In this document: one piece after another, positions 32,232 through 52,000 of the stretch | Layout of the letters: the number at the start of each line of letters is the position of its first letter | How positions within the stretch are numbered: the stretch's first letter is position 1 | NCBI GenBank assembly: GCA_944379995.1 | Contig: CALWGF010000001.1 | Coordinates: 225,006-289,005, forward strand | Length of the DNA: 64,000 nucleotides | DNA from: an uncultured Clostridia bacterium | GTDB lineage: Bacteria > Bacillota > Clostridia > Lachnospirales > Anaerotignaceae | Reading direction: 5' to 3' | Program-made: the position numbers and the translations under genes | Notes under the pieces: generated by a model | Told to the model about the DNA's origin: nothing | Database searches by the model: none | What the model saw: only the letters and a program-made list of their open reading frames with translations

Positions 32232-32251
32232 TAAAATCAAAAATATATAAG

Positions 32252-32480
32252 CATACTGTTGATAAATCTAAACCTATTTTTTAAATTTTTAGATACCGCT
32301 GAAGGGTATAGGGAAACAAAGAGTTTCCCTATTTTAATCCGCAGACGGAATTGATTTCCGTCGAGAAAAACAGCAGGTTTCAAGGCATTTTATGCCGATG
32401 GAACGTGTCTGTTTATACTGATAATAATTTTGTCAAAATCTTGATTTTGACAATTAGAGTGTCTATTTTTTTCGACACTC
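32252..32480 (+). repeat. Structured intergenic element, copy A
   Basis: About 229 bp, aligned along its length with copy B at 51744-51965 (same strand). Features in order: AAACCTATTTTTTAAATTTTT box; ACCGCTGAAGG; hairpin GGGAAAC / GTTTCCC; hairpin ACGGAA / TTCCGT; CAGC(A/G)GGT able to pair with ACCGCTG; hairpin around GGCA / TGCC; GTCTG able to pair with CAGAC; hairpin GTCAAAATC / GATTTTGAC; final hairpin GAGTGTC / GACACTC. It lies between the hemolysin III gene and the leuS T-box promoter. AAAATATATA occurs on both sides (32240-32249, 32484-32493), which may be chance. No ORF. It could be a non-coding RNA or a non-autonomous element. Confidence 0.8.
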
Positions 32481-32493
32481 TAGAAAATATATA

Positions 32494-32796
32494 TTGATTT
32501 TTGTGAAAAATTATGGTATATATAATATCTGAAAGAATGTAAAATGCTGTGAAAAGGAATAGTAAATATAACAACTTTTTTCAGAGAGCTGTCGGTTGGT
32601 GTAAGGCAGTATTTGTGTTATATTGAACTCGCCTTTGAGCTTCACTCTGAATTTTTTTAGTAGGAAGTGACGTATGCCTGCGTTAAAGGTTTTAAGGCGT
32701 GTTTTTATTTTAAAATTTTTTAAAAATAAAAACAAACTAGAGTGGTAACGCGGATATATCCTTCGTCTCTAATTTTATGAGGCGAAGGATTTTTTT
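32494..32796 (+). promoter_or_regulatory. T-box leader for tRNA-Leu controlling leuS
   Basis: Possible promoter TTGATT (32494) and TATATA (32517). Stem I shows CAGAGAG (~32582) and the GGTTGGTGTAAGGC apical region; the specifier is CTC (32628-32630) in GAACTCGCC. The T-box proper is GTGGTAACGCGG (~32742-32753), followed by terminator TCCTTCGTCTC / GAGGCGAAGGA (32759-32789) with T7. Uncharged tRNA-Leu would allow readthrough into leuS. Confidence 0.93.
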
Positions 32797-32815
32797 ATTT
32801 AAGGAGGAAAGTTTT

Positions 32816-35227
32816 ATGAATAGTCGCTATGAATTTAGCCAAATAGAAAAAAAATGGCGTGCTGAATGGGAAAAAAATCCTATTAACAAAGAAGATGACA
32901 AAAAACCTAAATATTATTGTCTTGATATGTTCCCATATCCATCAGGTACAGGGCTTCATGTAGGTCACTGGAGAGGATATGTTTTAAGTGATGTTATAAG
33001 CCGTTATAAAGTTTTACAAGGGTATCAGGTTCTCCACCCAATGGGTTGGGACGCTTTTGGTCTTCCTGCTGAAAACTTTGCTATTAAAAACAATATTCAC
33101 CCTTCAATAGCAACTGCTTCAAATATTGCTAATGTTAAAAGACAGCTTCACGATATAAGTGCTATATATGATTGGGATAGAGAAGTTAATACAACAGACC
33201 CTAATTATTATAAATGGACACAGTGGATATTTGTTCAGATGTTTAAAAAAGGTCTTGCATATGAAAAAGAAATGCCTCTTAACTGGTGTCCAAGCTGTAA
33301 ATGTGTTCTTGCTAATGAAGAGGCTACAAATGGTGTTTGTGAACGTTGTGGTGCTACTGTTACAAAGAAAAATCTTCGTCAGTGGATGCTTAAAATAACA
33401 GCTTATGCTGAAAGACTTTTAGAAGACTTAAATAAACTTGATTGGCCAGAAAAAGTTAAAAAAATGCAGTCTGACTGGATTGGAAAAAGCTATGGTGCAG
33501 AAGTAGAATTTGCTGTTAAAGATACAGATGAAAAAATAACTGTATATACAACAAGACCAGATACACTTTATGGTGCTACATTTATGGTACTTTCACCAGA
33601 ACATGAGCTTGTAAAAAAAATCACAACTGATGAACAGAAAGAAGAAATGGAAAAATACTGTTTCCTTGCATCAACAAAATCTTCAGTTGATAGAGTTACA
33701 GACAAAGAAAAAACAGGTGTATTTACAGGTAGATATGGTATAAATCCATTAAATGGTGCATTAACACCTATATGGGTTTCAGACTATGTTCTCGCTGATT
33801 ATGGTACAGGTGCTATTATGTGTGTTCCTGCTCACGACCAGAGGGACTTTGAATTTGCTAAAAAATTTGACCTTCCTATAATTCAGGTTATTAAAGAAGA
33901 GGGAAAAGAAGGCGGAGAACTTACAGAAGCTTATACAGGTGACGGAATTATGATTAATTCTGGCGACTGGAATGGAATGAAAGCCTCAGAAGCAAAAGCA
34001 AAAGCTCCTTTATACCTTGAAGAAAAGGGAATTGGTAAGAAAACAGTTAATTATAAACTTCGTGACTGGGTATTCTCAAGACAAAGATATTGGGGCGAAC
34101 CTATTCCTATTGTACATTGTCCACATTGTGGTGCTGTACCTGTGCCAGAAGACCAGCTTCCTGTTGTTTTACCAAATGTTGAGTCATACAAACCAACAGA
34201 TACAGGAGAATCACCACTTGCAGACATTGATGAATGGGTAAATACAAAATGCCCTTGCTGTGGTGCTGATGCGAAAAGAGAAACAAATACAATGCCTCAA
34301 TGGGCAGGTTCTTCTTGGTATTTCCTTCGTTATGTTGACCCACATAATAATGAGGCTCTTGCAAGTAAAGAAGCTCTTGATAAATGGGCTCCTGTTGATA
34401 TGTATGTTGGAGGTATAGAACACGCCGTATTACATCTTTTATACGCTCGTTTCTATACAAAAGTACTTTATGATATTGGAGCAGTTTTATTTGATGAGCC
34501 ATTCTTAAAACTCTTTAATCAGGGTATGATTACAAAAGATGGTAATAAAATGAGTAAATCAAAAGGAAATGTTGTTTCTCCAGACGTACTTGTTGAAAAA
34601 TACGGTTGTGACTCATTAAGAATGTATGAGCTTTTCGTAGGGCCACCAGAACTTGACTCTGAATGGGACGATAGTGGTATTGATGGTGTATTCCGTTATC
34701 TTAATAAAGTTTGGAAATTTGTTGCAGGATATAAAGATAAAACTGTTGCTGCTACAAAAGAAATGGAATTTGCTAAAAATAAAATGATTTATGAAATAAC
34801 AACACGTCTTGAAGCTCTTACAATGAATACAGTTGTAAGTGGATTTATGGAATATACAAATAAAATGATAGACGTTGCTAAAAATGCAGACGGTATTGAT
34901 AAAGAGTCTTTAGAAGCACTTGTAAGACTTCTTGCTCCTTTCACACCACATATTGCAGAAGAGATGTGGAGAGAACTTGGACATGATATAACAGTATTTG
35001 AAGCAGGTTGGCCAGAATATGATGAGTCAAAACTTGTTGTTTCAACAGTTGAATTACCTGTACAGATTAATGGTAAAGTAAAAGATAGTATAGAAATTGA
35101 TAAAGACGAAGCAAAAGATGTTGTTCTTGCAAAAGCAAAAGAACTTCTTGGTGGAAAATTAGAAGGAAAAACAATAGTTAAAGAAATCTATGTTCCAGGT
35201 AGAATTATTAACTTTGTTGTAAAATAA
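32816..35227 (+). CDS. leuS: Leucyl-tRNA synthetase
   Basis: 803-residue class I synthetase. HIGH-type motif FPYPSGTGLHVGHWRGY (~38-54), CP1 editing domain with TTRPDTLYGATFMVLSPEH (~236-254) that hydrolyses mischarged tRNA, two zinc-ribbon-type Cys sets (CPSCKC..CERCG ~160-180; CPHCG and CPCCG later) and KMSKS (~577-581). ATG at 32816 after AAGGAGG; the frame opens at 32777 inside the T-box terminator, which cannot be translated. Expected length. Confidence 0.98.
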   Translation: MNSRYEFSQIEKKWRAEWEKNPINKEDDKKPKYYCLDMFPYPSGTGLHVGHWRGYVLSDVISRYKVLQGYQVLHPMGWDAFGLPAENFAIKNNIHPSIATASNIANVKRQLHDISAIYDWDREVNTTDPNYYKWTQWIFVQMFKKGLAYEKEMPLNWCPSCKCVLANEEATNGVCERCGATVTKKNLRQWMLKITAYAERLLEDLNKLDWPEKVKKMQSDWIGKSYGAEVEFAVKDTDEKITVYTTRPDTLYGATFMVLSPEHELVKKITTDEQKEEMEKYCFLASTKSSVDRVTDKEKTGVFTGRYGINPLNGALTPIWVSDYVLADYGTGAIMCVPAHDQRDFEFAKKFDLPIIQVIKEEGKEGGELTEAYTGDGIMINSGDWNGMKASEAKAKAPLYLEEKGIGKKTVNYKLRDWVFSRQRYWGEPIPIVHCPHCGAVPVPEDQLPVVLPNVESYKPTDTGESPLADIDEWVNTKCPCCGADAKRETNTMPQWAGSSWYFLRYVDPHNNEALASKEALDKWAPVDMYVGGIEHAVLHLLYARFYTKVLYDIGAVLFDEPFLKLFNQGMITKDGNKMSKSKGNVVSPDVLVEKYGCDSLRMYELFVGPPELDSEWDDSGIDGVFRYLNKVWKFVAGYKDKTVAATKEMEFAKNKMIYEITTRLEALTMNTVVSGFMEYTNKMIDVAKNADGIDKESLEALVRLLAPFTPHIAEEMWRELGHDITVFEAGWPEYDESKLVVSTVELPVQINGKVKDSIEIDKDEAKDVVLAKAKELLGGKLEGKTIVKEIYVPGRIINFVVK

Positions 35228-35235
35228 TATTTATA

Positions 35236-35264
35236 GGGTATCGATAAAGTCGATACCCTTTTTT
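35236..35264 (+). terminator. Terminator of leuS
   Basis: Perfect stem GGGTATCGA / TCGATACCC, loop TAAAG, then T6. Confidence 0.92.
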
Positions 35265-35271
35265 ATGGTGA

Positions 35272-35314
35272 TGGGGATAGTGTCCCCAGCGGGGTGTTGG
35301 GGTAGAACCCCAAG
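35272..35314. repeat. GC-rich double hairpin of unknown origin
   Basis: TGGGGA-N5-TCCCCA (35272-35288) is followed by TTGGGGT-AGA-ACCCCAA (35298-35314), joined by GCGGGGTG. This GC-rich patch is out of keeping with the AT-rich surroundings and carries no ORF. It may be the relic of a mobile element end or an inserted repeat. Confidence 0.45.
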
Positions 35315-35381
35315 GTCTTAATAAAATTTGAATAAATATGCAATTAATATTGTATTTTTTTAAGAAATTTGTAAAAATATA

Positions 35382-35500
35382 TTGTTAATTTGCATAAAAA
35401 GTGGTAAATTATAAAGCGTGTTCCTTTAGAGGGGGAAATAATTATAAAAGGAACTGGGTAAAAAAACATATTTTGTTTTTTTATGCAGGATAAAAAAGGA
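35382..35500 (+). promoter_or_regulatory. Promoter and hairpin-rich leader of the symporter gene
   Basis: TTGTTA (35382-35387) and TAAATT (35405-35410), 17 bp apart. The leader can form GTTCCTTT / AAAGGAAC (~35419-35455) and then a hairpin in AAAAAAACATATTTTG with a T7 run, which looks like an attenuator. No known riboswitch class was recognised. Confidence 0.4.
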
Positions 35501-35513
35501 GATGAACTAAAAA

Positions 35514-36722
35514 ATGGCAGAAAAAAAACTTAGTATGCCTATAAAAACTCTTATTGGTCTTTTATGTGGTGTTGTAGTAGGTCTTTTACTTGAAAAAAAT
35601 TCTTATATTGCAACTACATATATAAGTCCTTTTGGTACATTGTTTTTAAATTGTATTAAAATGGTTGTTGTACCTATGGTATTTTCATCAATAGTTGTTG
35701 GTGTTTGTGGTATAGGTGATGCAAGACGTGTTGGAAGAATAGGTGGAAAAACAGTATTGTATTTCCTTTGTACAACAATTTGTGCTGCATCATTTGGTAT
35801 TATTGCTGCTAATATATTTAAAATTGGACAGGGATTTACAATTGAAGGTTCTATTGCAGAGGTTACAATACCAGAAAATCCGGGAATTATAAATACTTTA
35901 ATAAATATTATACCTTCAAACCCTATACAATCAATTGCTAATGGAGATATGCTTCAAATTATAGCTTTTGCAATAGTAGTTGGTGCTGGTACTGTAATTG
36001 TTGGTGAAAGAGCAAAATATGTATATAAATTCTTTGACGGTATGGCAGAAATAATGTTCTCAATAACAGGGGTAATAATGAAATTTACACCTTTTGCAGT
36101 ATTTGCTCTTATAACACCTGTTGTTGCTCAAAATGGTGTAAAAGTACTTCTTCCTCTTATAAGTGTTGTACTTATTGTTTATGGAACTTGTATATTCCAC
36201 GCAATAGTTGTATATTCATCATCAGTTAAAATATTTTCAGGCATAAGCCCTATTAAATTCTTTAAAGATGCAGCAGAAGCTATTGTTTTTGCTTTTACAT
36301 CTGCAAGTAGTTCTGCAACACTTCCATATTCTATGAAATCAGCAGAAAAACTTGGTGTTTCCGAACCGGTAGCATCTTTTGTACTTCCTCTCGGTTCTAC
36401 AATAAATATGGACGGTACAGCAATATATCAGGGTATATGTGCATTATTTATAGCTAATGTTTATGGTATAGAACTTACACTTGTTCAACAGATAACAATA
36501 GTTCTTACTTGTACATTTGCATCAGTAGGTGCAGCAGGTATACCTGGTTCTGCTATGATTATGCTTTCAATGGTTTTACAGTCTGTTGGACTTCCTCTCG
36601 AAGGTATAGGACTTGTTGCAGGAATTGACCGTATAACAGATATGGCACCAACAGCAACAAATATAACAGGTGATATTGCTTGTTCAGTAGTTGTTGGAGC
36701 AACAGAAAAAGAAATTAAATAA
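35514..36722 (+). CDS. Dicarboxylate/amino acid:cation symporter (DAACS)
   Basis: 402 residues, eight membrane helices plus re-entrant hairpins. Family signatures: serine-rich FTSASSSATLPYSMK (~262-276), substrate/sodium motif GSTINMDGTAIYQG (~294-307), and AAGIPGSAMIMLS (~341-353) with GIDRITDM later. Family members take up glutamate, aspartate, dicarboxylates, or Ser/Thr with Na+ or H+. The substrate is not clear from the sequence. Monocistronic with a hairpin-rich leader. Confidence 0.93.
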   Translation: MAEKKLSMPIKTLIGLLCGVVVGLLLEKNSYIATTYISPFGTLFLNCIKMVVVPMVFSSIVVGVCGIGDARRVGRIGGKTVLYFLCTTICAASFGIIAANIFKIGQGFTIEGSIAEVTIPENPGIINTLINIIPSNPIQSIANGDMLQIIAFAIVVGAGTVIVGERAKYVYKFFDGMAEIMFSITGVIMKFTPFAVFALITPVVAQNGVKVLLPLISVVLIVYGTCIFHAIVVYSSSVKIFSGISPIKFFKDAAEAIVFAFTSASSSATLPYSMKSAEKLGVSEPVASFVLPLGSTINMDGTAIYQGICALFIANVYGIELTLVQQITIVLTCTFASVGAAGIPGSAMIMLSMVLQSVGLPLEGIGLVAGIDRITDMAPTATNITGDIACSVVVGATEKEIK

Positions 36723-36735
36723 TTTATTTATTAAA

Positions 36736-36768
36736 AAACAGGCTATATTTTTATAGTCTGTTTTTTTA
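36736..36768 (+). terminator. Terminator of the symporter gene
   Basis: Stem AAACAGGCTATA / TATAGTCTGTTT (one wobble), then T-rich tail. Confidence 0.88.
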
Positions 36769-36823
36769 TGCTATAATATATAAAAATTTATATAAGAATT
36801 TTTATTATAGAGGTGAAATTAAT

Positions 36824-37567
36824 ATGGTTGAAATATGTTGCGGTAGTTTTTATGATGCTTTAATGGCATATAAAGGCGGTGCTAAAAGAATAGAACTTAA
36901 TAGTAGTTTAAATTTGGGCGGTTTAACTCCTTCTATTGGTACACTTGAAATTGTAAAAGAAAAATGTAATGGTATTAAAATTGTTTCTATGGTTCGTCCT
37001 AGAGGTGCAGGCTTTTGTTATTGCGATGAAGATTTTTATGTTATGGAAAGAGATTGTAAAGAGCTTTTAAAAAATGGTAGTGACGGTATAGTTTTTGGTT
37101 GTCTTAATTCTGATTTTACACTTGATATTTATAAAAATGAAAAACTTATTGATTTAATTCATCAGTATAATGGAGAGGCTGTTTTTCATAGAGCATTTGA
37201 CTGTGTACAAAATCCTTATGAAACAATAGAAAAACTTATTGATATGGGTGTTGATAGAATTCTTACAAGTGGACTTAAAGAAAAAGCATATGACGGAAGA
37301 TTTCTTATAAAAGAATTACAACAAAAATATGGTGATGATATAGAAATACTTGCAGGTAGTGGCATAAACTCAAATAATGCAAAAGAAATTATGGAATTTA
37401 CAGGCATATCACAAGTTCATAGTTCTTGTAAAGAATGGATTTGTGATAATACAACAAAATCTGAAAATGTTTCTTATGCCTTTGGGGTTGGTGAATATGA
37501 AATGTGTTATGATGCTGTTTCTGAAAAACTTGTAAGTGAACTTTTAAAATCTTTAGGAGAGTTTTAA
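36824..37567 (+). CDS. cutC: CutC family copper homeostasis protein
   Basis: 247 residues, TIM-barrel CutC family: GGAKRIELNSSLNLGGLTPSIG (~18-39, conserved), MVRPRGAGFCYCDEDF (~57-72), FHRAFDC (~123-129), RILTSGLKEKAYDG and GSGINSNN. A role in copper handling is the family annotation and is weakly supported biochemically. Followed four bases later by alaX, so probably co-transcribed. Confidence 0.92.
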   Translation: MVEICCGSFYDALMAYKGGAKRIELNSSLNLGGLTPSIGTLEIVKEKCNGIKIVSMVRPRGAGFCYCDEDFYVMERDCKELLKNGSDGIVFGCLNSDFTLDIYKNEKLIDLIHQYNGEAVFHRAFDCVQNPYETIEKLIDMGVDRILTSGLKEKAYDGRFLIKELQQKYGDDIEILAGSGINSNNAKEIMEFTGISQVHSSCKEWICDNTTKSENVSYAFGVGEYEMCYDAVSEKLVSELLKSLGEF

Positions 37568-37571
37568 TAAA

Positions 37572-38720
37572 ATGACAGAAAAATTATATTATAAAGACGG
37601 ATATATAAAAGAATTTGAAGCTATTGTTACAAATTGTACAAAAAAAGATAATTATTTTATTATAGAACTTGATAAAACAGCTTTTTATCCTGAAGGCGGT
37701 GGACAAGCAGGAGATACAGGTTTTATTGGTGATATTGAAGTATTTGACACTCACGAAAAAGATGAAAAAGTACTTCATTATTCAAAAAATAGTATTGAAA
37801 TAGGTACTTCTGTAAAATGTCGTATAAATTGGGAAAGACGTTTTCCTATTATGCAAGAACATACAGGAGAGCATATTGTTTCCGGTGTTATACATAAACT
37901 TTATGGATATAATAACGTAGGTTTTCATATGGGAAAAGATGCTGTTGTTATAGATATTGACGGAAATCTTAATGAAAGTGATATTGATAAAATAGAATAT
38001 ATTTCTAATGAGGCTATTTATGAAAATATAGAGGTTAAAACTTCAATATATGATGAAAAAACTGTTTCTAATATTGAATATAGAAGTAAAAAGAAAATTG
38101 AAGGCAATATACGAATTGTTAATATAGAAGGCTATGATACTTGTGCTTGTTGTGGTGTTCATACTAAAAGAACAGGGGAAATAGGTATAATAAAAATTTT
38201 AGATTTTCAAAAATATAAAGGCGGAACAAGAATATCTATGCTCTGTGGCAAAAGAGCATTGATTGATTATAGAAATAAAAATAAAGATGTATATAAAATA
38301 TCATCAATTCTTTCTGCAAAGCCTGAAAATATAACAGAATATACTGAAACTACTCTTAAAAAACTTGAATATGAAAAAAACGAAAATTTCAGACTTAATA
38401 TGGAAATTTTTAAATTGAAATCAGAAAAATATAATAATGAGAAATTTATAATTGAATTTTTAGAAATTGAAAATTCTGACCTTTTAAGAAGATATTGTAC
38501 AATACTTTTTGAAAAATCTGATATGTGTTGTGTATTTGGTGGAAATGACCAAAAAGGTTATAAATATGTTGTTTATAGCAAATACGAAAATATGAAAGAC
38601 TTTGCTAAAAATATGAATAAAGAACTTTCCGGAAAAGGTGGGGGAAAGGATTTAATGATACAAGGTAGCGTAAATGCTACAAAAGAAAATATAGAAAAAT
38701 ATTTTAATAAATATAAATGA
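37572..38720 (+). CDS. Alanyl-tRNA editing protein AlaX (long type)
   Basis: 382 residues resembling the editing half of AlaRS plus a C-terminal DHHA1-like domain. Zinc ligands: HTGEH (~98-102, HxxxH) and CACCGVH (~193-199, CxxxH); PEGGGQAGDTG (~41-51) is the AlaX/ThrRS-SAD start. C-terminal GKGGGKDLMIQGSV (~355-368) matches DHHA1. It hydrolyses Ser- or Gly-mischarged tRNA-Ala in trans. The ribosome site lies within the end of cutC. Confidence 0.92.
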   Translation: MTEKLYYKDGYIKEFEAIVTNCTKKDNYFIIELDKTAFYPEGGGQAGDTGFIGDIEVFDTHEKDEKVLHYSKNSIEIGTSVKCRINWERRFPIMQEHTGEHIVSGVIHKLYGYNNVGFHMGKDAVVIDIDGNLNESDIDKIEYISNEAIYENIEVKTSIYDEKTVSNIEYRSKKKIEGNIRIVNIEGYDTCACCGVHTKRTGEIGIIKILDFQKYKGGTRISMLCGKRALIDYRNKNKDVYKISSILSAKPENITEYTETTLKKLEYEKNENFRLNMEIFKLKSEKYNNEKFIIEFLEIENSDLLRRYCTILFEKSDMCCVFGGNDQKGYKYVVYSKYENMKDFAKNMNKELSGKGGGKDLMIQGSVNATKENIEKYFNKYK

Positions 38721-38741
38721 TAAAAATATAAAAAAATAAAA

Positions 38742-38764
38742 AAGCCTTCTGTAACAGAAGGCTT
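38742..38764. terminator. Bidirectional terminator
   Basis: Perfect stem AAGCCTTCTG / CAGAAGGCTT with a TAA loop between convergent alaX and folT. Confidence 0.9.
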
Positions 38765-38770
38765 AAATTT

Positions 38771-39328
38771 TTATACTTTTTTAAAATGAAAATTATGTAC
38801 TATTTTTTCAATAGATTTTGAAACTATATAAAATACAAACACTTCAATAGGGAACATTATAAGCTCTTTTATAACTCGTGCTGAAATAAGTACAAAAAAG
38901 CCTTTTCCTAAAAGTATTGAAAGCCAGTAAGTATTTAAAAGTGTGTTTACAAATATTGCTACTATAAGTTTTGCAAATACTATTCTTTTAAGGCTCATAG
39001 TTTGTTTGTAGAAAACAAAACCATAAATCATACCACCTAAAATTGCACTTATAGTAAATCCAGGGAAAAACTGCCCTGTTGGCTTTACAATAAATTTAAG
39101 TATGTCACTTACACCTGCCATAATTCCACCAACAGCAGGACCAAAAAACATAGCTGTAAGCTCATTTGGTACAAATGAAAAACCTATTTTCAAAAAGTCA
39201 CCAAGCTGTACTGTGGCAAAAAAGCCTAAAATAACAGCTAAAGCTATAAGCATAGCAACAGTAGTAAGTTTTCTTGTGTCCTTTAATTCTGAAGCGGACT
39301 CCTTCATTTTTTCAATTAAAACATTCAT
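38771..39328 (-). CDS. folT: Folate ECF transporter S component
   Basis: 185 residues with about six membrane helices. FolT marks: KIGFSFVPNELTAMFFGPAVGG (~47-68) and SDILKFIVKPTGQFFPGFTISAILGGMIYG (~76-105). It binds folate and works with the shared ECF energising module (EcfA/A'/T, not in this window). A THF riboswitch in its leader supports the assignment strongly. AAAGGAGG upstream. Confidence 0.93.
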   Translation of the reverse strand: MNVLIEKMKESASELKDTRKLTTVAMLIALAVILGFFATVQLGDFLKIGFSFVPNELTAMFFGPAVGGIMAGVSDILKFIVKPTGQFFPGFTISAILGGMIYGFVFYKQTMSLKRIVFAKLIVAIFVNTLLNTYWLSILLGKGFFVLISARVIKELIMFPIEVFVFYIVSKSIEKIVHNFHFKKV

Positions 39329-39397
39329 TTTATTACCTCCTTTGTATTATACTCCTTTTTGCTATACACAGAAGGTAGTAAAATCATTCTATGTGTA

Positions 39398-39493
39398 GCA
39401 GCGGGATGCGGATACTATAAGCAGTAAAAAAACTTAAATCCTTTTGGCAACTCCCCGTCCAAAATGGTTTTGACAAATAATATCCTACTCTGC
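39398..39493 (-). promoter_or_regulatory. Tetrahydrofolate (THF) riboswitch of folT
   Basis: Minus strand: P1 GCAG / CTGC at the ends, GCAGAGTAGGAT at the 5' side, central GGGGAGTTGCC, and the closing GTATCCGCATCCCGCTGC. These match the conserved ends and central loop of the folT/THF motif. Downstream (39394-39362), TACACA-t-AGAA / TTCTGTGTA can form a hairpin near the ribosome site, so control of translation or elongation is plausible. Confidence 0.88.
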
Positions 39494-39637
39494 GAATGTT
39501 TACTTTGAAAGTATAACAAAGAAAAATATTTTTTTCAATATATATTATTGATTGTATATTATAAAATGCAATTATATAAATTTATACATAAAAATACATA
39601 AAATTACAATAATAATGCATAAAAATAAAATTTTATG

Positions 39638-39888
39638 TTGACAAAATGTAATTATAGTAATATCATATATCTTGTTCGATTAAGAGGCCGCGAAAATCAA
39701 TAGTAGTTTTTTAACGAAAGGGAAATTCGCCGAAAGTATATTTTTACTTGGGACTGTGTTGAATAAATACAGTACTCCTTATTTGGTTTTGTCCGAGCCA
39801 AAATGAGGGTGCTTGTTCGAATTGGGCGAAAGTAGTTTTTTAAGTGGTATCTGTAACACCTTAGGCACTTTTGCTTATAGGTGTTTTT
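39638..39888 (+). promoter_or_regulatory. Lysine riboswitch (L box) with promoter and terminator
   Basis: Promoter TTGACA (39638-39643) and TATCAT (39661-39666), 17 bp apart. Aptamer ~39677-39819: closing helix CGATTAAG / CTTGTTCG, AAGAGGCCGCG, then AACGAAAGGGAAATTCGCCG and GACTGTGTTGAATAAATAC, all close to the L-box consensus. Terminator: ACACCTTA / TATAGGTGT with an inner GCA/TGC stem (39856-39884), then T5. Lysine binding should stop transcription before the dehydrogenase-like gene. Confidence 0.92.
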
Positions 39889-39924
39889 ATTTTATAATTT
39901 TATAAAGAGAAGGAGATTTTAAAA

Positions 39925-41091
39925 ATGGTTTTTGGGTTATTGAAAGACATTAAAAAAGGTGAATACAGAACAATAGCTACACCTGTTGAAATAGCTTCTA
40001 TTAAAAGTTGGGGACATACTGTGCTTGTTCAGAAAGGAGCAGGGGAAAGAGCCGGTTTTTCTGATGAAAGCTATATAAAAGCTGGTGCTACTATTATTGA
40101 AACAGCAGAAGAAATGTATGAAAAATGTGATTTTTTAACAAAAGTAAAAGAGCTTGAACCTTCTGAATTTGATATGCTTCGTGAAGGTCAAATTATATTT
40201 ACTTGTATACACCCTGCCGCTCATAGAGAAGAAGTACAAGCTATATTAGACAAAAAAGTTATAGCTTTTACAGCAGAGGACTCTCATAGATATGGTTCAC
40301 CAAACTGTGAAGCTGCCGGAAAACAAGGAGCTCTTTTTGGACTTGAATCAATGCTTACAATAAACGGTGGTAAAGGTAAATTTGTAAGCGGTCTTGGTGG
40401 AGCACCTGGAATGAATGTGCTTATACTTGGTGCAGGTGTTGTTGGTCGTGCTGCACTTGAAGTTCTTCATTCTCTCGGAGCTTGGGTAACAGTTATGGAT
40501 ATTAATATAGGAACACTTAGAGATGTTCAGAGAATGTATAATGAAAAAATAAACACAGCTTTCTGTACAAAAGAAAATATCAAAAAAATTCTTCCACAAA
40601 CAGATATGGTTTTAAACTGTGTAAAATGGCCTAAAGGTACAAATGAGTATCTTATAGATAGAGAAATGCTTAAACTTATGGAAAAAGGTTCTGTAATTGT
40701 TGATATAAGTAATGACGAAAATGGAGCAATAGAGTCATTCCACGAAACAACACACGAAGACCCAAGATATATTGAAGAGGGTATTGTACACTACTGTGTA
40801 AGTAATATTCCGGGGGCAATAGCACATTCAACATCAATAGCTTATGCAGGTTCTGTACTTCCTCATTTCCAAAAAATACTTAATAATGGAGTAGCAGAGG
40901 CTTGTGTAATGGACGGATACCTTAGAAGAAGCCTTACAGCATATAAAGGTTATCTTACACACGAGGAAACAAGTGCAATACAAAATAGACCATGGATAAA
41001 ACCAGAAGATATTTTAGGTATTGCAGATAGAAACCTTGACCCTGCACCACCTGCAACAGTAACAAAATCAAATAATTTTATTAAATTATAA
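39925..41091 (+). CDS. Alanine dehydrogenase/PNT-family oxidoreductase
   Basis: 388 residues, AlaDH_PNT N- and C-domains. KVKE (~73-76) and IHPAAHREE (~93-101) hold the substrate Lys and His of alanine dehydrogenase; Rossmann motif ILGAGVVGRAAL (~170-181); GSVIVDISNDENGAIE (~254-269) and HYCVSNIPGAIAHSTSIAYA (~290-309). The segment facing the substrate is divergent (RYGSPNCEAAGKQ where Ald has a LPLLTPMSEVAG-like block). It sits under a lysine riboswitch, so it may act on lysine or a derivative; the superfamily also includes saccharopine dehydrogenase and carboxyethyl-ornithine/lysine synthase. True alanine dehydrogenase remains possible. Confidence 0.8.
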   Translation: MVFGLLKDIKKGEYRTIATPVEIASIKSWGHTVLVQKGAGERAGFSDESYIKAGATIIETAEEMYEKCDFLTKVKELEPSEFDMLREGQIIFTCIHPAAHREEVQAILDKKVIAFTAEDSHRYGSPNCEAAGKQGALFGLESMLTINGGKGKFVSGLGGAPGMNVLILGAGVVGRAALEVLHSLGAWVTVMDINIGTLRDVQRMYNEKINTAFCTKENIKKILPQTDMVLNCVKWPKGTNEYLIDREMLKLMEKGSVIVDISNDENGAIESFHETTHEDPRYIEEGIVHYCVSNIPGAIAHSTSIAYAGSVLPHFQKILNNGVAEACVMDGYLRRSLTAYKGYLTHEETSAIQNRPWIKPEDILGIADRNLDPAPPATVTKSNNFIKL

Positions 41092-41171
41092 TATGGTTTT
41101 ATAGGTGGAAATTAATATATTTTGATTTCCACCTTTTTATATATTCTAATTATTTTAAAAAAGAAAGGTAG

Positions 41172-42587: not shown

Positions 42588-42595
42588 AAAAATAA

Positions 42596-42622
42596 TCCCT
42601 ATCCTTAGGATAGGGAATTTTT
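42596..42622. terminator. Bidirectional terminator
   Basis: Perfect stem TCCCTATCC / GGATAGGGA, loop TTA, with T-rich flank on + and A-rich on the other side, between convergent genes. Confidence 0.88.
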
Positions 42623-42637
42623 TATTTTAAAATATTA

Positions 42638-43300: not shown

Positions 43301-43504
43301 ATATACCACCTTTCACACATAAAATACATACTGTAACACTAAAAGGGTATATAATTAAATTGTTTTTGTCAAGAAAATAATAGTTTGGAAAATAAGAATT
43401 AAAGAAAAACAAAGAAAAAATGATTAAATAAAAGAAAAATTTAAAAAATATATATTTTTGGTGTATATAAACCGAATTTAACGTATATATTTTAAAAATG
43501 GTGT

Positions 43505-43571
43505 TTGCATAAAATCACAACAATGACTAATATAATATTAACGGTTAGCACTCATACTAAGTGAGTGCTAA
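43505..43571 (+). promoter_or_regulatory. groESL promoter and CIRCE operator
   Basis: Perfect CIRCE TTAGCACTC-N9-GAGTGCTAA at 43545-43571, the HrcA repressor site. Promoter TTGCAT (43505-43510) and TAATAT (43528-43533), 17 bp apart. HrcA would hold groESL down until heat or misfolding stress. The other ~190 bases upstream of this show nothing recognisable. Confidence 0.95.
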
Positions 43572-43607
43572 TAAACAAAATTGAGTATTAAGAGGAGGCT
43601 TTTATAT

Positions 43608-43895
43608 ATGAAATTAGTACCATTAGGAGATAAAGTTATTATTAAACAGATTGAAGCAGAAGAAAAAACAAAAGGTGGTCTTATTCTTACAACACAGTCA
43701 AAAGAAAAACCACAAATGGCAGAAGTAATTGCTGTTGGTCCGGGTGGAGAAGTAAACGGTTATGAAGTTAAAATGACTGTAAAAGAAGGCGACAAAGTTA
43801 TATATACAAAATATGCAGGAACAGAAGTTAAATTCGAAGGTGAAGAATATATTGTTGTAAAACAGAATGATATTCTTGCTATTATTGAAGACTAA
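43608..43895 (+). CDS. groES: Co-chaperonin GroES
   Basis: 95 residues (KLVPLGDKVIIKQIEAEEKTKGGLILTTQSKEKPQ, the mobile loop and roof). Caps GroEL. The ATG at 43608 follows AGAGGAGG; the frame opens at 43581 before the ribosome site and is not the start. Confidence 0.98.
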   Translation: MKLVPLGDKVIIKQIEAEEKTKGGLILTTQSKEKPQMAEVIAVGPGGEVNGYEVKMTVKEGDKVIYTKYAGTEVKFEGEEYIVVKQNDILAIIED

Positions 43896-43937
43896 TTCTT
43901 TTAAAAATATAGTTAAAAAGATAAAAATATAAAATAG

Positions 43938-45584
<1,647 letters not shown>

Positions 45585-45617
45585 TTAAAAACAATTTAAA
45601 AAATATATAATAATATT

Positions 45618-45666
45618 GCCTCATATATTTTGTAAGTGGTATAATACAAATATATGGGGCTTTTTT
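45618..45666 (+). terminator. Terminator of groESL
   Basis: Long stem GCCTCATATATTTTGTA / TACAAATATATGGGGC (one bulge, one wobble), then T6. Confidence 0.88.
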
Positions 45667-45695
45667 GATAATAAAAAAGTTTTAAAAATATTATA

Positions 45696-45781
45696 TTGCG
45701 GTATTTTTAATTTTATTGTAAAATATCCTTTTATATGATAGGATATAAATAGTCGCTTTAAAAATAGTATTGTATTTTTAA
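45696..45781 (+). promoter_or_regulatory. guaA promoter and leader
   Basis: TTGCGG (45696-45701) and TAAAAT (45719-45724), 17 bp apart. The short leader has hairpins ATATCC / GGATAT (~45723-45746) and AAAATA / TATTTT (~45763-45780). It has no purine riboswitch consensus. Confidence 0.5.
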
Positions 45782-45795
45782 CGGAGGTTAAGTTA

Positions 45796-47337
45796 ATGAA
45801 GCACGAATTAGTTATTGTTCTTGATTTCGGCGGACAGTATAATCAGCTTATTGCAAGACGTGTAAGAGAATGTAATGTATATTGCGAAGTTAAGCCTTAT
45901 ACAATGCCACTTGATGAAATCAAAGCTTTAAATCCTAAAGGAATTATTTTTACAGGTGGACCAAACAGCGTTTATGACGAGAAGTCACCTCATATTGCTA
46001 AGGAAATATTTGAAATGGGTATTCCTATTCTTGGTATTTGCTATGGTTCACAGCTTATGTCATATACACTTGGAGGAAAAGTTGAAACTGCTCCTGTAAG
46101 TGAATATGGTCATACAGAAGTTGAAGTTGATACAAAAGATGTTATATTTGACGGTGTATCAGACAAAACTGTATGCTGGATGAGTCATACAGATTATATT
46201 TCAGAAGTACCAGAAGGTTTCAGTATTACAGCACATACTCCAGTTTGTCCTGTTGCTGCTATGGCTTACCCAGAAAAGAAACTTTATGCTACACAGTTCC
46301 ACCCAGAAGTTATGCATACTGCTGAAGGTATGAAAATGCTTAGTAACTTTGTTTATAAAGTTTGTGAATGTAAAGGTGACTGGCAAATGGCTTCTTTTGT
46401 TGAAACAACAATAAAAGAACTTAAAGAAAAAATCGGTGACGGAAAAGTACTTTGTGCTCTTTCTGGCGGTGTAGACTCATCTGTTGCTGCTGTTCTTCTT
46501 TCAAAAGCTATTGGTAAACAGCTTACTTGTGTTTTTGTTGACCATGGTCTTCTTCGTAAAAATGAAGGTGATGAAGTTGAAGCTGTTTTTGGTCCTGATG
46601 GTCATTATGAACTTAACTTTGTAAGAGTAAATGCACAGAAAAGATACCTTGAAAAATTAAAAGGTGTTGAAGACCCAGAAACAAAGAGAAAAATTATAGG
46701 TGAAGAATTTATAAGAGTATTTGAGGAAGAAGCTAAAAAAATTGGTGCTGTTGACTTCCTTGTACAGGGTACAATATATCCTGACGTTATAGAGTCTGGT
46801 CTTGGTAAATCAGCTGTTATTAAATCACATCATAATGTTGGTGGTCTTCCAGACGTTGTTGATTTCAAAGAAATTGTTGAGCCTTTAAGAATGCTTTTCA
46901 AAGATGAAGTTAGAAAAGTTGGTCTTGAGCTTGGTATACCAGAATATCTTGTATTCCGTCAACCATTCCCAGGTCCTGGACTTGGTATAAGAATTATTGG
47001 TGAAGTAACAGAAGAAAAAATTAAAATCGTTCAGGAAGCAGATTATATTTATCGTGAAGAAATTGCAAAAGCAGGTATCGACAAAGGTCTTGGACAGTAT
47101 TTTGCAGCTTTAACAAATATGCGTTCAGTAGGTGTTATGGGTGACTTTAGAACATATGATTATGCTATTGCACTTCGTGCTGTAAATACATCAGACTTTA
47201 TGACAGCTGATGCTGCTCAGCTTCCTTGGGAAGTTCTTGCGAAAGTTACAAACAGAATTGTTAATGAAGTTAAAGGTGTTAACCGTGTAATGTACGACTG
47301 TACAGGAAAACCACCTGCAACAATAGAGTTCGAATAA
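45796..47337 (+). CDS. guaA: GMP synthase (glutamine-hydrolysing)
   Basis: 513 residues. N-terminal class I glutamine amidotransferase: nucleophile Cys in [10 protein letters not shown] (~77-86), His/Glu in QFHPEV (~168-173). ATP-pyrophosphatase domain: P-loop-like [15 protein letters not shown] (~219-233). C-terminal dimerisation domain with [15 protein letters not shown] and KPPATIEFE end. Converts XMP to GMP. Standard length. Confidence 0.99.
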
Positions 47338-47352
47338 AATTTTTATAAATAA

Positions 47353-47397
47353 AGCCGTTAAAACCTTTCAAATAAAGGTCTTTAACGGTTTTGTTTT
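47353..47397 (+). terminator. Terminator of guaA
   Basis: Stem GCCGTTAAAACCTTT with AAAGGTCTTTAACGGT (bulged), T-rich tail. Confidence 0.85.
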
Positions 47398-47513
47398 TTG
47401 TTATAAAAATAATATTTTTAATTATAATATTATAATTTTATTATAAAAATATATATAATTATTGTAAATTTGTTTGTTAAAATGTATAATATAACCATAA
47501 AGGGGGTATATTT

Positions 47514-49283
47514 ATGAATTTACAATTTAAAAAAGTAGTTTCTGTATTGCTTATGTTTATAATGACATTAAGCATGTCTGTTTCGGCTATTGCTGATGAA
47601 AGTACAACGACAGTTTCAACAGCATATAAAGATTTATCTGGAAAAACAGAAATTTATGCTGTAACAGAAACACCAGGAAATGACTATGTATTTTATAATG
47701 CAAAAAATGAGCCTAATGGTGGTGTATATTATGGTCGTACAGCTCAAGGTGGTACTTTAGCAAATGGAAATTATGGTCTTATAAATGGAGATTATATTAA
47801 AAATGAGTCTATGATTTCTTTTTATTACAGTTTAAGTGATGCTTATAGTTTAGAGTATTGGTCATACTTATTCGGTGATATGCTTAAAGATGGAAATCAC
47901 GGTTTCCTTGTATATATTAACTTTGATAATGAAGGTGCTGATTGTACATCTGTAATAAATGGTTCATATGATGCAAAAATTATTGAAACATTAAATTATC
48001 TTAATACATTGTCTTGTCCTGTATTTTTAAGAATAGCAGGAGAGGTTAACGTTTGGTCAACACCGGTAACACCTGAAAATTATATTGCTGCATATAGACA
48101 TATTGCTACACTTGCAAGAACATATTCACCAAGAGTTGCTTGTGTTTATTCACCTAATTATAGTAGTGGGTACCTTGTTGATATGGATAGTTTTTATCCG
48201 GGAGATGATTATGTTGATTGGATAGGCTGTTCATTATATTATAATCGTTATCATCATAGCCTTACAGGTCAAGATGCATTTTTAGGTGTTGGTGCATATG
48301 GTGACCCATTACTTAATGTGCAACAAACAGTAAATTTATCAAATTTACATAAAAAACCTGTTATAATTACAGAAGGTGGTTCTGCAAATAGTTATAATGG
48401 AACAGATAATTCTGATTGGGCTGCTGACCGTATGGCAAGAGCATATTCATATTTATCTATGGTTTATCCTCAGATTAAAGCAATAGTATCATCTGATTAT
48501 GGCAATAATTGGGAGAAAACAGACTATACATTCTATGATAATGCTACTGTAACATCTGCTTATCAAAAAGCAATAAGTTCAAATCCTACTCTTGTTAGTA
48601 GTTGTAAAAATAAAGGCTCTTATTATACAAAACTTTCTTCTTATACAGGAAAATGGGAAGGTAAAATAACTTTGGCTGCTTATACATATTCTGATGTAAA
48701 ACCAACAGCAAGCTGGTATATAGACGGGAAATGGATTACTATGTCAACAGATTATCCATATAGCTTTGTTCTTGATACTTCAACATTATCAGCCGGAAAT
48801 CATACAATAGAAGTTAAATTCAGTAATGGTGCTTCAAAGGCTTATACAATAAGTACAGGCACACAATATACAGCTTCTAAAACAAATGATAAACTTTATG
48901 TAGATGGTACACTTAAATCACCAGCTATATATAAAATTGAAGGAAGTAATTATTTTAATTTAAGAGATGTTGCTGCACTTCTTAATGGAACAGCAAAACA
49001 ATTTGAAGTAGGTTATAATGCATCAACAAATAGTGTAACTGTAACAACAAATAAACCTTATACAATGACAGGAACAGAACTTACAGGAGTAAGCGAAAAT
49101 AATGCAGTTGCAGCAGCAAGTAATAATAGTATATATGTAAATGGTCAAAAACTCGATTTACAGGTATATAAAATTAATGGAAGTAATTATTTTAAACTTA
49201 GAGATTTAGGAAAAGCAATAAATTTTTATGTTGGTTATGAAAATGGTAATGTAATAATATCAAGCAGTAATTCTTATGCTTAA
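47514..49283 (+). CDS. Secreted GH26-like glycoside hydrolase with copper-amine-oxidase-like C-terminal domains
   Basis: 589 residues. Signal peptide (~1-27, cut near SAIA-DE). A TIM-barrel domain (~70-360) resembles mannanase-type GH26: acid/base candidate Glu in FLRIAGEVNVW (~172-182), nucleophile candidate Glu in PVIITEGGSAN (~285-295), and WIGCSLYYN between. Then an Ig/Fn-like domain (~380-450) and two CopAmOx_N1-like modules (YKIEGSNYFNLRDVAALLNG ~478-497; YKINGSNYFKLRDLGKAIN ~553-571), typical of Clostridial cell-wall-associated proteins. Probably acts on glycans outside the cell; the substrate is not known. Confidence 0.78.
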   Translation: MNLQFKKVVSVLLMFIMTLSMSVSAIADESTTTVSTAYKDLSGKTEIYAVTETPGNDYVFYNAKNEPNGGVYYGRTAQGGTLANGNYGLINGDYIKNESMISFYYSLSDAYSLEYWSYLFGDMLKDGNHGFLVYINFDNEGADCTSVINGSYDAKIIETLNYLNTLSCPVFLRIAGEVNVWSTPVTPENYIAAYRHIATLARTYSPRVACVYSPNYSSGYLVDMDSFYPGDDYVDWIGCSLYYNRYHHSLTGQDAFLGVGAYGDPLLNVQQTVNLSNLHKKPVIITEGGSANSYNGTDNSDWAADRMARAYSYLSMVYPQIKAIVSSDYGNNWEKTDYTFYDNATVTSAYQKAISSNPTLVSSCKNKGSYYTKLSSYTGKWEGKITLAAYTYSDVKPTASWYIDGKWITMSTDYPYSFVLDTSTLSAGNHTIEVKFSNGASKAYTISTGTQYTASKTNDKLYVDGTLKSPAIYKIEGSNYFNLRDVAALLNGTAKQFEVGYNASTNSVTVTTNKPYTMTGTELTGVSENNAVAAASNNSIYVNGQKLDLQVYKINGSNYFKLRDLGKAINFYVGYENGNVIISSSNSYA

Positions 49284-49291
49284 TAAATAAT

Positions 49292-49326
49292 AAAAAGCCT
49301 TTGCATGTAATATGTAAAGGCTTTTT
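49292..49326 (+). terminator. Terminator of the hydrolase gene
   Basis: Stem AAAAAGCCTTTGCAT / ATGTAAAGGCTTTTT (one mismatch), T-rich. Confidence 0.88.
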
Positions 49327-49488
49327 GTTTTGTTAAGTATAAAATTAATATTTTTGAAATTAGAATCTATAATTATTTAAAATTTTATTAATAAATGTTA
49401 TAATATGTGGATTATTTGTAATAATTGAGTTATAATAAATTTATATTTAGGTTACAAAAAGAGGGAGTATTTTTAGAAAGGGGATTTT

Positions 49489-50412
49489 ATGAAAGTATCA
49501 TTGGTAATTATGGCTGCCGGTATAGGTTCAAGATTTGGGGGCGGAGTAAAGCAGCTTGAACCTGTTGGTCAAAATGGAGAACTTATAATAGATTTTTCTA
49601 TACACGATGCTATCGAGGCAGGTTTTAATAAAATTGTATTTATTATAAGAAAAGATATTGAAAAAGATTTTAGAGAAGTTATAGGGGATAGAATAGAGAA
49701 GATTTGTAATAAACTTAATGTTGAAATATGTTATGTTTATCAGGATATTAATAATATTCCTAAAGGATTTTCTGTACCTTTTGACAGAAAAAAACCTTGG
49801 GGTACTGGACAGGCTGTTCTTGCCTGTGAAAAAGTTGTAAATGAGCCTTTTGCTGTTATAAATGCAGATGATTATTATGGTAAAGAGGCATTTAAAAAAG
49901 TTTATAAATATCTTGTTACTGAAGCTGAAAACAACAAATTCTGTATGGCTGGGTTTGTACTTAAAAATACATTAAGTGAAAATGGCGGTGTAACAAGAGG
50001 TATTTGTAATGTTGATGAAAATGATTACCTTTCAGATATTGTTGAAACTAAAAATGTTATGAAAACAGAAAATGGAGTTTTTGCAAATAATACTGAAATA
50101 GATGAAAATTCTTATGTATCAATGAATATGTGGGGGTTAACACCAGAATTTATACAATTATTAGATAAAGGTTTTGTTGAATTTTTTGAAAATGATGTAA
50201 AAAAAGACCCTCTTGGTTGTGAATACCTTTTACCTATATATATAGGAGAACTTCTTAAAAATAACAGTTTATCTGTTAAAGTTTTAAAAACAAATGACAA
50301 ATGGTTTGGTGTTACATACAAAGAAGACAAAGAAAGTGTTATTGAAAATTTTAAAGAACTTCTTAATAAAGGTGTATATAACATCAACTTATTTGGTGAT
50401 TTAATAAAATAA
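49489..50412 (+). CDS. NTP-transferase (sugar-phosphate nucleotidyltransferase-like)
   Basis: 307 residues. N-terminal MAAGIGSRFGGGVKQLEPVG (~8-27) is the nucleotidyltransferase start; NADDYYG (~124-130) supplies the metal-binding Asp; KKPWGTGQAVLAC (~103-115) is substrate-binding. It matches stand-alone nucleotidyltransferases of Clostridia (GlmU/RfbA fold), with a C-terminal part not of the acyltransferase type. Substrate unknown; monocistronic. Confidence 0.83.
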   Translation: MKVSLVIMAAGIGSRFGGGVKQLEPVGQNGELIIDFSIHDAIEAGFNKIVFIIRKDIEKDFREVIGDRIEKICNKLNVEICYVYQDINNIPKGFSVPFDRKKPWGTGQAVLACEKVVNEPFAVINADDYYGKEAFKKVYKYLVTEAENNKFCMAGFVLKNTLSENGGVTRGICNVDENDYLSDIVETKNVMKTENGVFANNTEIDENSYVSMNMWGLTPEFIQLLDKGFVEFFENDVKKDPLGCEYLLPIYIGELLKNNSLSVKVLKTNDKWFGVTYKEDKESVIENFKELLNKGVYNINLFGDLIK

Positions 50413-50419
50413 AAATATT

Positions 50420-50445
50420 GCAGTCCTTTAAGGGCTGCTTTTTTA
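50420..50445 (+). terminator. Terminator of the NTP-transferase gene
   Basis: Stem GCAGTCCT / AGGGCTGC (one wobble), then T6. Confidence 0.82.
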
Positions 50446-50673
50446 TTGTATAATATTCAATACATAAATATATTTTTAATTTTATTTCTATTATAAAAAT
50501 TACTTGATTTAACAGTATTTTTATATATTTATTCGTAATTTACAGTATATTTTTTATTATGGGTATAAAAAATACTTATTTTTATATTGTGCATAAAAAT
50601 GTTATAATACTCTACAAAAACAAAGATATATACATTGTTTAAACATTGTATACAATCTGGAAAGAGGGGAAAA

Positions 50674-51702
50674 ATGGATACATTACAAAAAGTAAGTAAA
50701 TTTTTATCAGGTTATACATCTATGGTGGTAATTGTTATTGCTGCAATTACATTTATTTTTCCACATATTATGAGTTGGGTAAATATAGCATTATTTGTTG
50801 ACCCTTTTGCCAATAAATTTACATGTCAGTCAATTATTATAGGAATTATTATGTTTAGTATGGGTTTAACTCTTACAAAAGAGGATTTTTATATTCTTGC
50901 ACAAAGACCTTTTGATATTGTAATTGGTGCTATTGCACAGTATTTTATTATGCCACTTTTAGCACTTTTTTTAACAAAAGTATTTAATTTACCTAATGCA
51001 ATAGGTTTAGGGCTTATACTTGTTGGTTGTTGTCCTGGTGGTGTTTCATCAAATATTATGTCATACCTCTGCGGAGGAGATGTTGCATTTTCTGTTGGAA
51101 TGACAACAGTTTCAACACTTCTTTCACCTGTTATGACACCGCTTCTTGTATCATTACTTGCAAGTGGTACAGAAATTCAGATAAGTGCAATACCTATGTT
51201 TGTTTCTATTATTGAAACAGTAATCATTCCTGTTGGACTTGGTTTTGCATTAAATTACTTATGGGGTAAAAATGAAGTATTTGAAGATATACAAAAGGTT
51301 ATGCCAGGTGTTGCAGTATTAGGTCTTGCCTGCGTAGTTGGAGGCGTTATTGCATCACAAGGTGCGAATTTCTTTAAATCAGGTCTTGTTATATTTATTG
51401 TTGTTGTTTTACATAATGGTTTTGGTTATTTATTAGGATATAGTGCAGGTTTTATTACAGGTATGAACTATTCAAAAAGAAAAACTATTGCTATTGAAGT
51501 AGGTATGCAAAATGCAGGTCTTGCAACAAATCTTGCAACAACAACTGCACAGTTTGCAAGTGCTCCTCAAGCTGCTGTAATATGTGCTGTATCTTGTGTA
51601 TGGCATTCTATTTCAGGTACATTACTTGCAGGATTTTTTGCTTGGAAAGATAAAAGAAGTCAAAAAAACTATGATGTAACAAAAGCTGGTTCTATTTCAT
51701 AA
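50674..51702 (+). CDS. Bile acid:sodium symporter (BASS) family transporter
   Basis: 342 residues, nine to ten membrane helices. Family marks: MFSMGLTLTKEDF (~60-72), LILVGCCPGGVSSNIMSYLCGGDVAFSVGMTTVSTLLSPVMTP (~112-154; the CCPGG and SN residues bind sodium) and EVGMQNAGLATNLA (~271-284). Most bacterial BASS proteins carry organic anions (pantoate, pyruvate, 2-oxoacids), not bile acids. ATG at 50674 follows AGAGGGG; the frame opens earlier at 50635. Confidence 0.9.
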   Translation: MDTLQKVSKFLSGYTSMVVIVIAAITFIFPHIMSWVNIALFVDPFANKFTCQSIIIGIIMFSMGLTLTKEDFYILAQRPFDIVIGAIAQYFIMPLLALFLTKVFNLPNAIGLGLILVGCCPGGVSSNIMSYLCGGDVAFSVGMTTVSTLLSPVMTPLLVSLLASGTEIQISAIPMFVSIIETVIIPVGLGFALNYLWGKNEVFEDIQKVMPGVAVLGLACVVGGVIASQGANFFKSGLVIFIVVVLHNGFGYLLGYSAGFITGMNYSKRKTIAIEVGMQNAGLATNLATTTAQFASAPQAAVICAVSCVWHSISGTLLAGFFAWKDKRSQKNYDVTKAGSIS

Positions 51703-51716
51703 AAATATTAAAATAT

Positions 51717-51743
51717 AAACTGATATACTTTGTATATCAGTTT
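51717..51743 (+). repeat. 27-bp hairpin, first copy flanking element B
   Basis: AAACTGATATAC / GTATATCAGTTT with a TTT loop, identical to 51966-51992. It follows the BASS gene but lacks a T-run, because element B starts directly after it. Confidence 0.9.
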
Positions 51744-51965
51744 CAGACTGTCAAAAAACCTATTTTTTAAATTTTTGATACCGCTGAAGGATAAAGGGAA
51801 ACGAAGAGTTTCCCTTTTTTAATCCGCAGACGGAATTAACTTCCGTCAAGGAAAACAGCGGGTTTCAAGGCACTTTGTGCTGATGGAACACGTCTGTTTA
51901 TTCTTCTGTCTATTTCGTCAAAATCCTGATTTTGACGAGAGTGTGTCGACTTTTTCGACACACTC
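51744..51965 (+). repeat. Structured intergenic element, copy B
   Basis: 222 bp related to copy A (32252-32480), same strand. Hairpins: GGGAAAC / GTTTCCC; ACGGAA / TTCCGT; GGCAC / GTGCT (GGCA / TGCC in A); GTCAAAATC / GATTTTGAC; GAGTGTGTCGA / TCGACACACTC (GAGTGTC / GACACTC in A). ACCGCTG can pair with CAGCGGGT, and CAGACG with CGTCTG (possible pseudoknot). Several differences from A are paired changes that keep the stems. It sits exactly between two 27-bp hairpin copies, as if inserted into the BASS terminator. No ORF. Confidence 0.85.
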
Positions 51966-52000
51966 AAACTGATATACTTTGTATATCAGTTTATTTCTTT
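51966..52000 (+). terminator. BASS gene terminator (second 27-bp hairpin copy)
   Basis: The same hairpin as 51717-51743, here followed by TTATTTCTTTTCT, so this copy probably keeps the original T-rich end of the terminator. Confidence 0.7.

Follow-up and report, generated by a model that had tools for sequence, protein, structure and literature searches.

What is the sequence of about 220 bp that occurs twice between genes of the 64-kb window (the whole stretch of clostridial DNA analysed here), and how did it come to be there? Two origins had been proposed in a first-pass annotation: a new non-coding RNA family, or a non-autonomous element mobilised in trans by an IS200/605-like or similar enzyme. 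Both copies lie on the same (+) strand, at the positions first given for them. Copy 2 (51744-51965, found by sequence, BLAST and model match) is complete, with 222 bp, and copy 1 (32252-32481) has a decayed left end. The neighbours of copy 1 are an HlyIII/TrhA-family gene and leuS, those of copy 2 a bile-acid:sodium-symporter-type gene and xpt; leuS and xpt had been named correctly before. Copy 2 opens with its left end CAGACTGTCAAAAAACC (51744-51760), which resembles the end of IS1182 elements in relatives (13/13 match). There follow hairpin P1 (51793-51817, from the alignment of copies), hairpin P2 with a UUNAY loop (51829-51847, from covariation) and the long-range stem P3 (51853-51866 with 51885-51899) around hairpin P4 (51869-51881), a unit of 51853-51899 with three significant column pairs in P3 and one in P4. 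Hairpin 5 (51916-51937) and terminal hairpin 6 (51939-51965), which holds the right end (complement GAGTGTGTCGAAAAAG), are placed by folding. In copy 1 the left end (CATACTGTTGATAAATC) matches at 8/13 positions, and the sequence gives P1 at 32308-32332, P2 at 32344-32362 and, within 32368-32414, P3 (32368-32381 with 32400-32414) around P4 (32384-32396); folding adds hairpin 5 (32430-32453) and terminal hairpin 6 (32456-32481). All of these parts are on the + strand, and at least five hairpins are common to the two copies, as was first observed.

Both copies fold far better than any of 200 shuffles, with z of -8.2 for copy 2 and -6.4 for copy 1. In the window, a covariance model built from 43 copies, including these two, gives one full match at 51782-51947 (151.4 bits), another at 32297-32455 (144.4 bits), and three weak partial matches on the opposite strand inside the same two copies. 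Neither copy holds an open reading frame of 80 or more amino acids, the size searched, in keeping with the earlier claim, and no transposase gene of their own was found among frames of that size. Promoter-like sites are at chance level (1 found against 1.9 expected, and 3 against 2.3); one lies on the + strand at 32259-32287, at the left of copy 1. Rfam searches at the gathering threshold, with the window and 10 loci, returned only T-boxes and riboswitches, all outside the element, and at relaxed E-values copy 2 and one copy from family f74 gave only weak matches, far below gathering scores. The element is thus neither a T-box nor a known riboswitch, in agreement with the first-pass annotation; the leuS T-box (32540-32773, +) starts 59 bases past the end of copy 1. 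The window holds a second T-box leader (19193-19429, +), and a lysine riboswitch (39674-39822, +) stands near a THF riboswitch (39397-39494, -) on the opposite strand.

How widespread is the element? The genome of the window (25 contigs, 88.8% complete) gives 9 model matches and 14 BLAST matches, the latter including pieces of one copy and two contig-end matches of the same locus. The covariance-model search that had been recommended found many further copies in the genome and its relatives: within the bacterial family, 52 of 58 genomes and 16 of 17 genera have model matches, with a highest count of at least 52 in one genome. In the window's own genus, the other two genomes gave no model match. 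Across the order 80 of 392 genomes match, 28 of them among the 334 outside the family, and 24 of these 28 belong to family f12. At E <= 1e-6 a sample of the class gives 5 matching genomes out of 391, and two of these belong to f74, a family outside the order. Carriers of the core among the matches listed include Anaerotignum lactatifermentans, Chakrabartyella piscis and Candidatus Metalachnospira gallinarum, and in a check for carriage by viruses IMG/VR gave no exact match to a strict core pattern. A sister element in f74 (L275-L282; genomes G513, G618 and G768) has the same order of parts and little common sequence; it matches 6 of 21 genomes of that family, two of them only over a 24-30-base end.

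The flanks point to the way in which the element arrived. Two identical 27-bp copies of AAACTGATATACTTTGTATATCAGTTT enclose copy 2, at 51717-51743 and 51966-51992, a repeat absent from the first-pass annotation; the left one is terminator-like on the - strand, and around copy 2 two terminator-like sites, one per strand, were found against 0.1 expected. Of 109 copies with an intact core and sufficient sequence on either side, 49 stand between direct repeats scoring at least 12, against 0.9% of 3000 mismatched pairings (L036 and L082, contig-end slicing artefacts, were left out of 51 apparent repeats); in an earlier set 34 of 102 copies scored at least 13, against none of 102 swapped controls. 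The 49 repeats range in length from 12 to 41 bp, with a median of 23 bp; a stem of at least six pairs can form in 35 of them. In the 39 copies with the stronger repeats, where the element between them has a median length of 222 bp, T-runs and A-runs are found on the outer sides only: T-runs at the right measure 5.1 outside and 2.6 inside, A-runs at the left 5.7 outside and 2.4 inside. The targets are alike in fold and not in sequence. Repeats with stems and outer T- and A-runs argue that the site is a predicted intrinsic terminator whose hairpin has been duplicated. In 60 of the 109 copies, copy 1 included, no flanking repeat was detected. Beside copy 1, AAAATCAAAAATATATA (32233-32249) and TATATATTGATTTT (32488-32501) could, by interpretation only, be the left and right halves of one hairpin that the insertion split. 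At L005 the flanking hairpins are GATGCTC..GAGCATC and GGTGTTC..GAACACC, and they look like a duplicated terminator that may have drifted with compensatory changes.

Could the repeats nevertheless be a host non-coding RNA or 3'UTR element, multiplied by chance and not a transposon? The presence in 52 of 58 family genomes would suit such an RNA, as would the 33 copies that keep the core with decayed ends and no repeat, but target duplications together with IS-like ends speak against it, and the duplications largely refute it. Nor do at least 52 matches in one genome, with no orientation rule, look like a host gene. Genes could be called on both sides, by simple ORF calling, in 112 of 142 copies: 44 pairs converge and 14 diverge, and the element runs in the direction of its neighbours in 24 copies and against it in 30. 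These counts (24 against 30; 13 to 14 in core-intact copies) show no preferred orientation towards genes, and therefore sense transcription is not favoured; a host element of the sense-strand 3'UTR draws no support from them. At one convergent gene pair common to two genomes (L068 and L091) the element stands in opposite orientations, which again does not fit a host RNA, and we regard this explanation as very improbable. At L033 and L144 the flanking gene pair is the same, yet the duplicated hairpin differs in each genome. The simplest reading would be independent insertions into the same terminators. In three genomes (L006, L079 and L089) copies follow left-hand genes that are homologous, with 64-71% identity; by its C-terminal sequence this gene may be ilvC.

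If the element is mobile, as is well supported, which enzyme moves it? In relatives the same kind of site is used by autonomous elements. The transposase domain PF13751 is matched 11 times in genome G057, in elements of 1.49 kb that start with TTCAGACTGTCAAAAAA and end with TTTGACAGTCTGAA. All ten with junctions examined lie between hairpin copies and have a left end as in the small element; the eleventh is identical to one of the other ten over the compared stretch. The transposase is a DDE enzyme of the IS1182 family (NF033551, 374.9 bits, cut-off 270). IS1182 elements with TCAGACTGT ends sit in duplicated hairpins at L203 and L204 (G116 and G180), and another is in an exactly duplicated 29-bp hairpin at L298 in G768, of f74; at L201 and L197 one side of the IS1182 element was examined, and the end at L201 adjoins a hairpin. 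The ends of the small element were compared with those of the G057 IS: at least 10 of 13 positions agree at the left end in 46 of 109 copies (0.9% of shuffles) and at the right end in 13 of 109 (0.7% of shuffles), and a stricter pattern is found at the left end of 18 and at both ends of 11. Right ends of type B (complement GAGTGTCGAAAAAGTCC..GGACTTTTT) resemble the end of the G768 IS (CAGACTGTCGAAAAAGTCC..GGACTTTTT). At L196, in G068, the terminator accgccgcattataaatgcggcggt is present three times; the first gap holds an IS1182 (ends CAGTCTGTC) and the second the small element. The two co-occur in G057, G068, G109 and G768. A search of the genome of the window, at its 88.8% completeness, gave no IS1182. 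Because of the IS1182-like left end, the same duplicated target and the side-by-side arrangement at L196, the element is most likely an IS1182-type miniature inverted repeat transposable element (MITE), and we infer that an IS1182 transposase most likely moves it in trans.

The proposals of the first-pass annotation can now be sorted. Its alternatives hold in part, in that the element has no convincing Rfam match, is mobile and carries no gene; the IS200/605 enzyme has to be given up. IS200/605 elements are not known to have terminal inverted repeats or target duplications, and since the element has IS1182-like ends and duplicated terminator hairpins, with an IS1182-family DDE partner in relatives, that mover is rejected. 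The further idea of an omega-RNA relic fails as well, by the same ends and duplications, and there is no match to the omega-RNA family (HEARO) in Rfam. Might the core instead be a guide or cofactor RNA that steers the IS1182 transposase to terminators? Element and IS1182 do have targets and ends in common. However, G116 and G180 have IS1182 in duplicated hairpins and the RNA model finds no match there at E <= 1e-6, which makes a guide role unlikely; the IS of G057, at 1.49 kb, leaves no space in which the core could lie, and the targets' likeness in fold and not in sequence is a further difficulty. We give the guide reading very little credence.

What, then, does the element carry? Its core covaries as an RNA-like structured family that is absent from Rfam. 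Already the two window copies differ in pairs, as had been pointed out: GGCAT..ATGCC in one against GGCAC..GTGCT in the other, and GAGTGTC..GACACTC against GAGTGTGTCGA..TCGACACACTC. In the 43-copy alignment 97.4% of paired cells can pair, a level raised by the fact that all core copies were picked by pattern or model, and changes on both sides number 169 cells, against 50.1 +/- 6.9 when shuffled and 10 to 42 when slid. Two long-range pairings had been suggested, and P3 is strongly supported; the outer one, of GCKGA with UCCGC at P1, is not claimed, as it would set U opposite C in the window copies. The partner of UCC is GGA, in columns that hardly vary in the same alignment. For a larger test, 213 model matches were filtered, first to the 134 that were unique, free of N and 145-180 bases long, then to 112 with more than 60% identity to the consensus. 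These were aligned with no use of structure and compared with 200 alignments simulated on the inferred tree, an in-house, tree-aware null that is R-scape-like and not R-scape itself. Six column pairs are significant, three in P3, one each in P2 and P4, and one outside the helices; the covariation check that had been advised thus yields five helix pairs beyond a phylogeny-aware null. Column pair 148-152 was set aside, being significant yet only 62% paired, with two hairpin forms misaligned there. Some copies have extra palindromic modules, each about 60 bases long, at two constant positions in the core, the P1 loop (L068, L069, L163, L174, L179 and L180) and P3 (L069, L161, L187, L189 and, in the window's genome, L008).

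Do the hairpins matter as RNA or as DNA? Across the 112 copies G-U pairs arose 77 times against 49 for A-C (p = 0.016), a modest excess carried by P2, P3b and P4. P1 is nearly even (20 against 17), and two of the six helices lean to A-C, P3 with 4 G-U against 7 and UCC/GGA with 1 against 3. In the 87 P1-forming rows, picked afterwards, the cells number 75 against 38. One U-G wobble is kept in 105 of 112 copies. The same MITE might hold its hairpins as DNA, either as palindromes corrected by template switching or as a folded strand or cruciform needed by the transposase or the host. Short hairpins are readily maintained in these ways, the G-U excess is missing from P3 and from UCC/GGA, there is no orientation preference, and the terminal hairpin has its loop in opposite orientations (CGAAAAAGTCG against CGACTTTTTCG) in L004, at the start of contig C7, and L009, at the end of C20, which are one locus at two contig ends. 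Set against this are the arms of P3, which covary across at least 30 intervening bases of varying content, the overall G-U excess with the conserved wobble, and unpaired positions that are conserved as well, e.g. the AA side of the P3/P4 internal loop. Retention as DNA is in our view unlikely. Because covariation exceeds the null and G-U outnumbers A-C, RNA is probably the form on which selection acts in the core. In the 33 copies with a decayed left end and no repeat, pairing is kept at 0.98 in P2 and 0.94 in P3, and is lower in P1 (0.74) and P4 (0.83).

The reading that we consider likely is therefore a non-autonomous MITE of about 220 bp, moved by IS1182, seated in terminators and with a core kept as RNA. 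An IS1182-family DDE transposase would move it in trans and insert it inside an intrinsic terminator, in many copies between two whole copies of the hairpin. As the T-rich tails remain outermost, transcription from either side would still be terminated. Transcription of a neighbouring gene would continue past the first hairpin and across the element until the second hairpin ended it, and thus the upstream mRNA would be lengthened at its 3' end by the core, P1, P2 and P3 with P4. The core is likely kept there for its folding as RNA, which probably protects the mRNA end, or is cut out as a small RNA, to the benefit of the element.

Hundreds of intergenic sites in these Clostridia carry this unannotated structured element, and a covarying RNA-like core in 16 of 17 genera, in an element with no gene, is unusual for a MITE. 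With a whole terminator duplicated, an insertion would cost the host little, and a low cost could help to explain why 13 of the 58 family genomes have at least 20 model matches. A bolder proposal, made tentatively and at somewhat less than even odds, is that of a gene-less transposon whose sole conserved payload is a multi-helix RNA. By entering a terminator and duplicating it, it would become the 3' end of host mRNAs and need no promoter of its own, and the folded RNA would aid its persistence or spread: a bacterial selfish RNA carried on a DNA transposon. How a transposon profits from placing an RNA at the ends of host mRNAs is a question that can be tested.

How does the element compare with known systems? 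Omega RNA (HEARO) of IS200/605 is likewise a structured RNA tied to a transposable element, but the ends, duplications and partner transposase are here of another kind. Similar in its target is IS1272/TnSha1 of staphylococci, also of the IS1182 family, which enters hairpins, including those of terminators, in both orientations and at sites with no common sequence (PMC4923244, PMC5678879); on IS1182 members that select palindromic targets, both papers cite the review of Siguier et al. In contrast to the present element it is autonomous and, in the passages on it in these papers, makes no target duplication, part of the hairpin being deleted or replaced, and is given no RNA core (PMC4923244, PMC5678879). 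Hairpin replacement of that type does not apply where the whole hairpin is duplicated, at copy 2 and in 49 of 109 copies; copy 1, taken alone, could fit an IS1272-type insertion without duplication.

Small non-autonomous relatives of IS1182 are found in Methanosarcina acetivorans, where ISMac2-related MITEs of 160 and 169 bp occur in 14 and 7 copies (PMC3852290). They differ in that their apparent duplication lengths are 4 and 0, and the account of them names neither a terminator target nor an RNA core (PMC3852290). QMITEs of Coxiella and the BOX and SPRITE repeats of the pneumococcus are MITE-like repeats whose transcripts also fold, some giving small RNAs or terminator-like structures, whereas duplication of a terminator hairpin is not part of their description in the source consulted (PMC10969869). 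Candidate mobile or repeat sequences such as MRSC-65-2 are, like the present element, structured, covarying and present in many copies per genome, and were judged selfish partly by their inconsistent orientation (PMC11109978, whose 250 candidates were not compared individually with the element). MRSC-65-2 is a single long stem of diverse phyla, whereas the core of the element has four helices, and all the copies found here are from Clostridia. No paper recognised as describing the element, or a terminator-duplicating IS1182 MITE, came up in a search of the open-licence literature. IS1182 elements that seek hairpins were already known, and what is new here is an IS1182-type MITE, as its sequence suggests, that combines duplication of a whole terminator with an RNA-like core.
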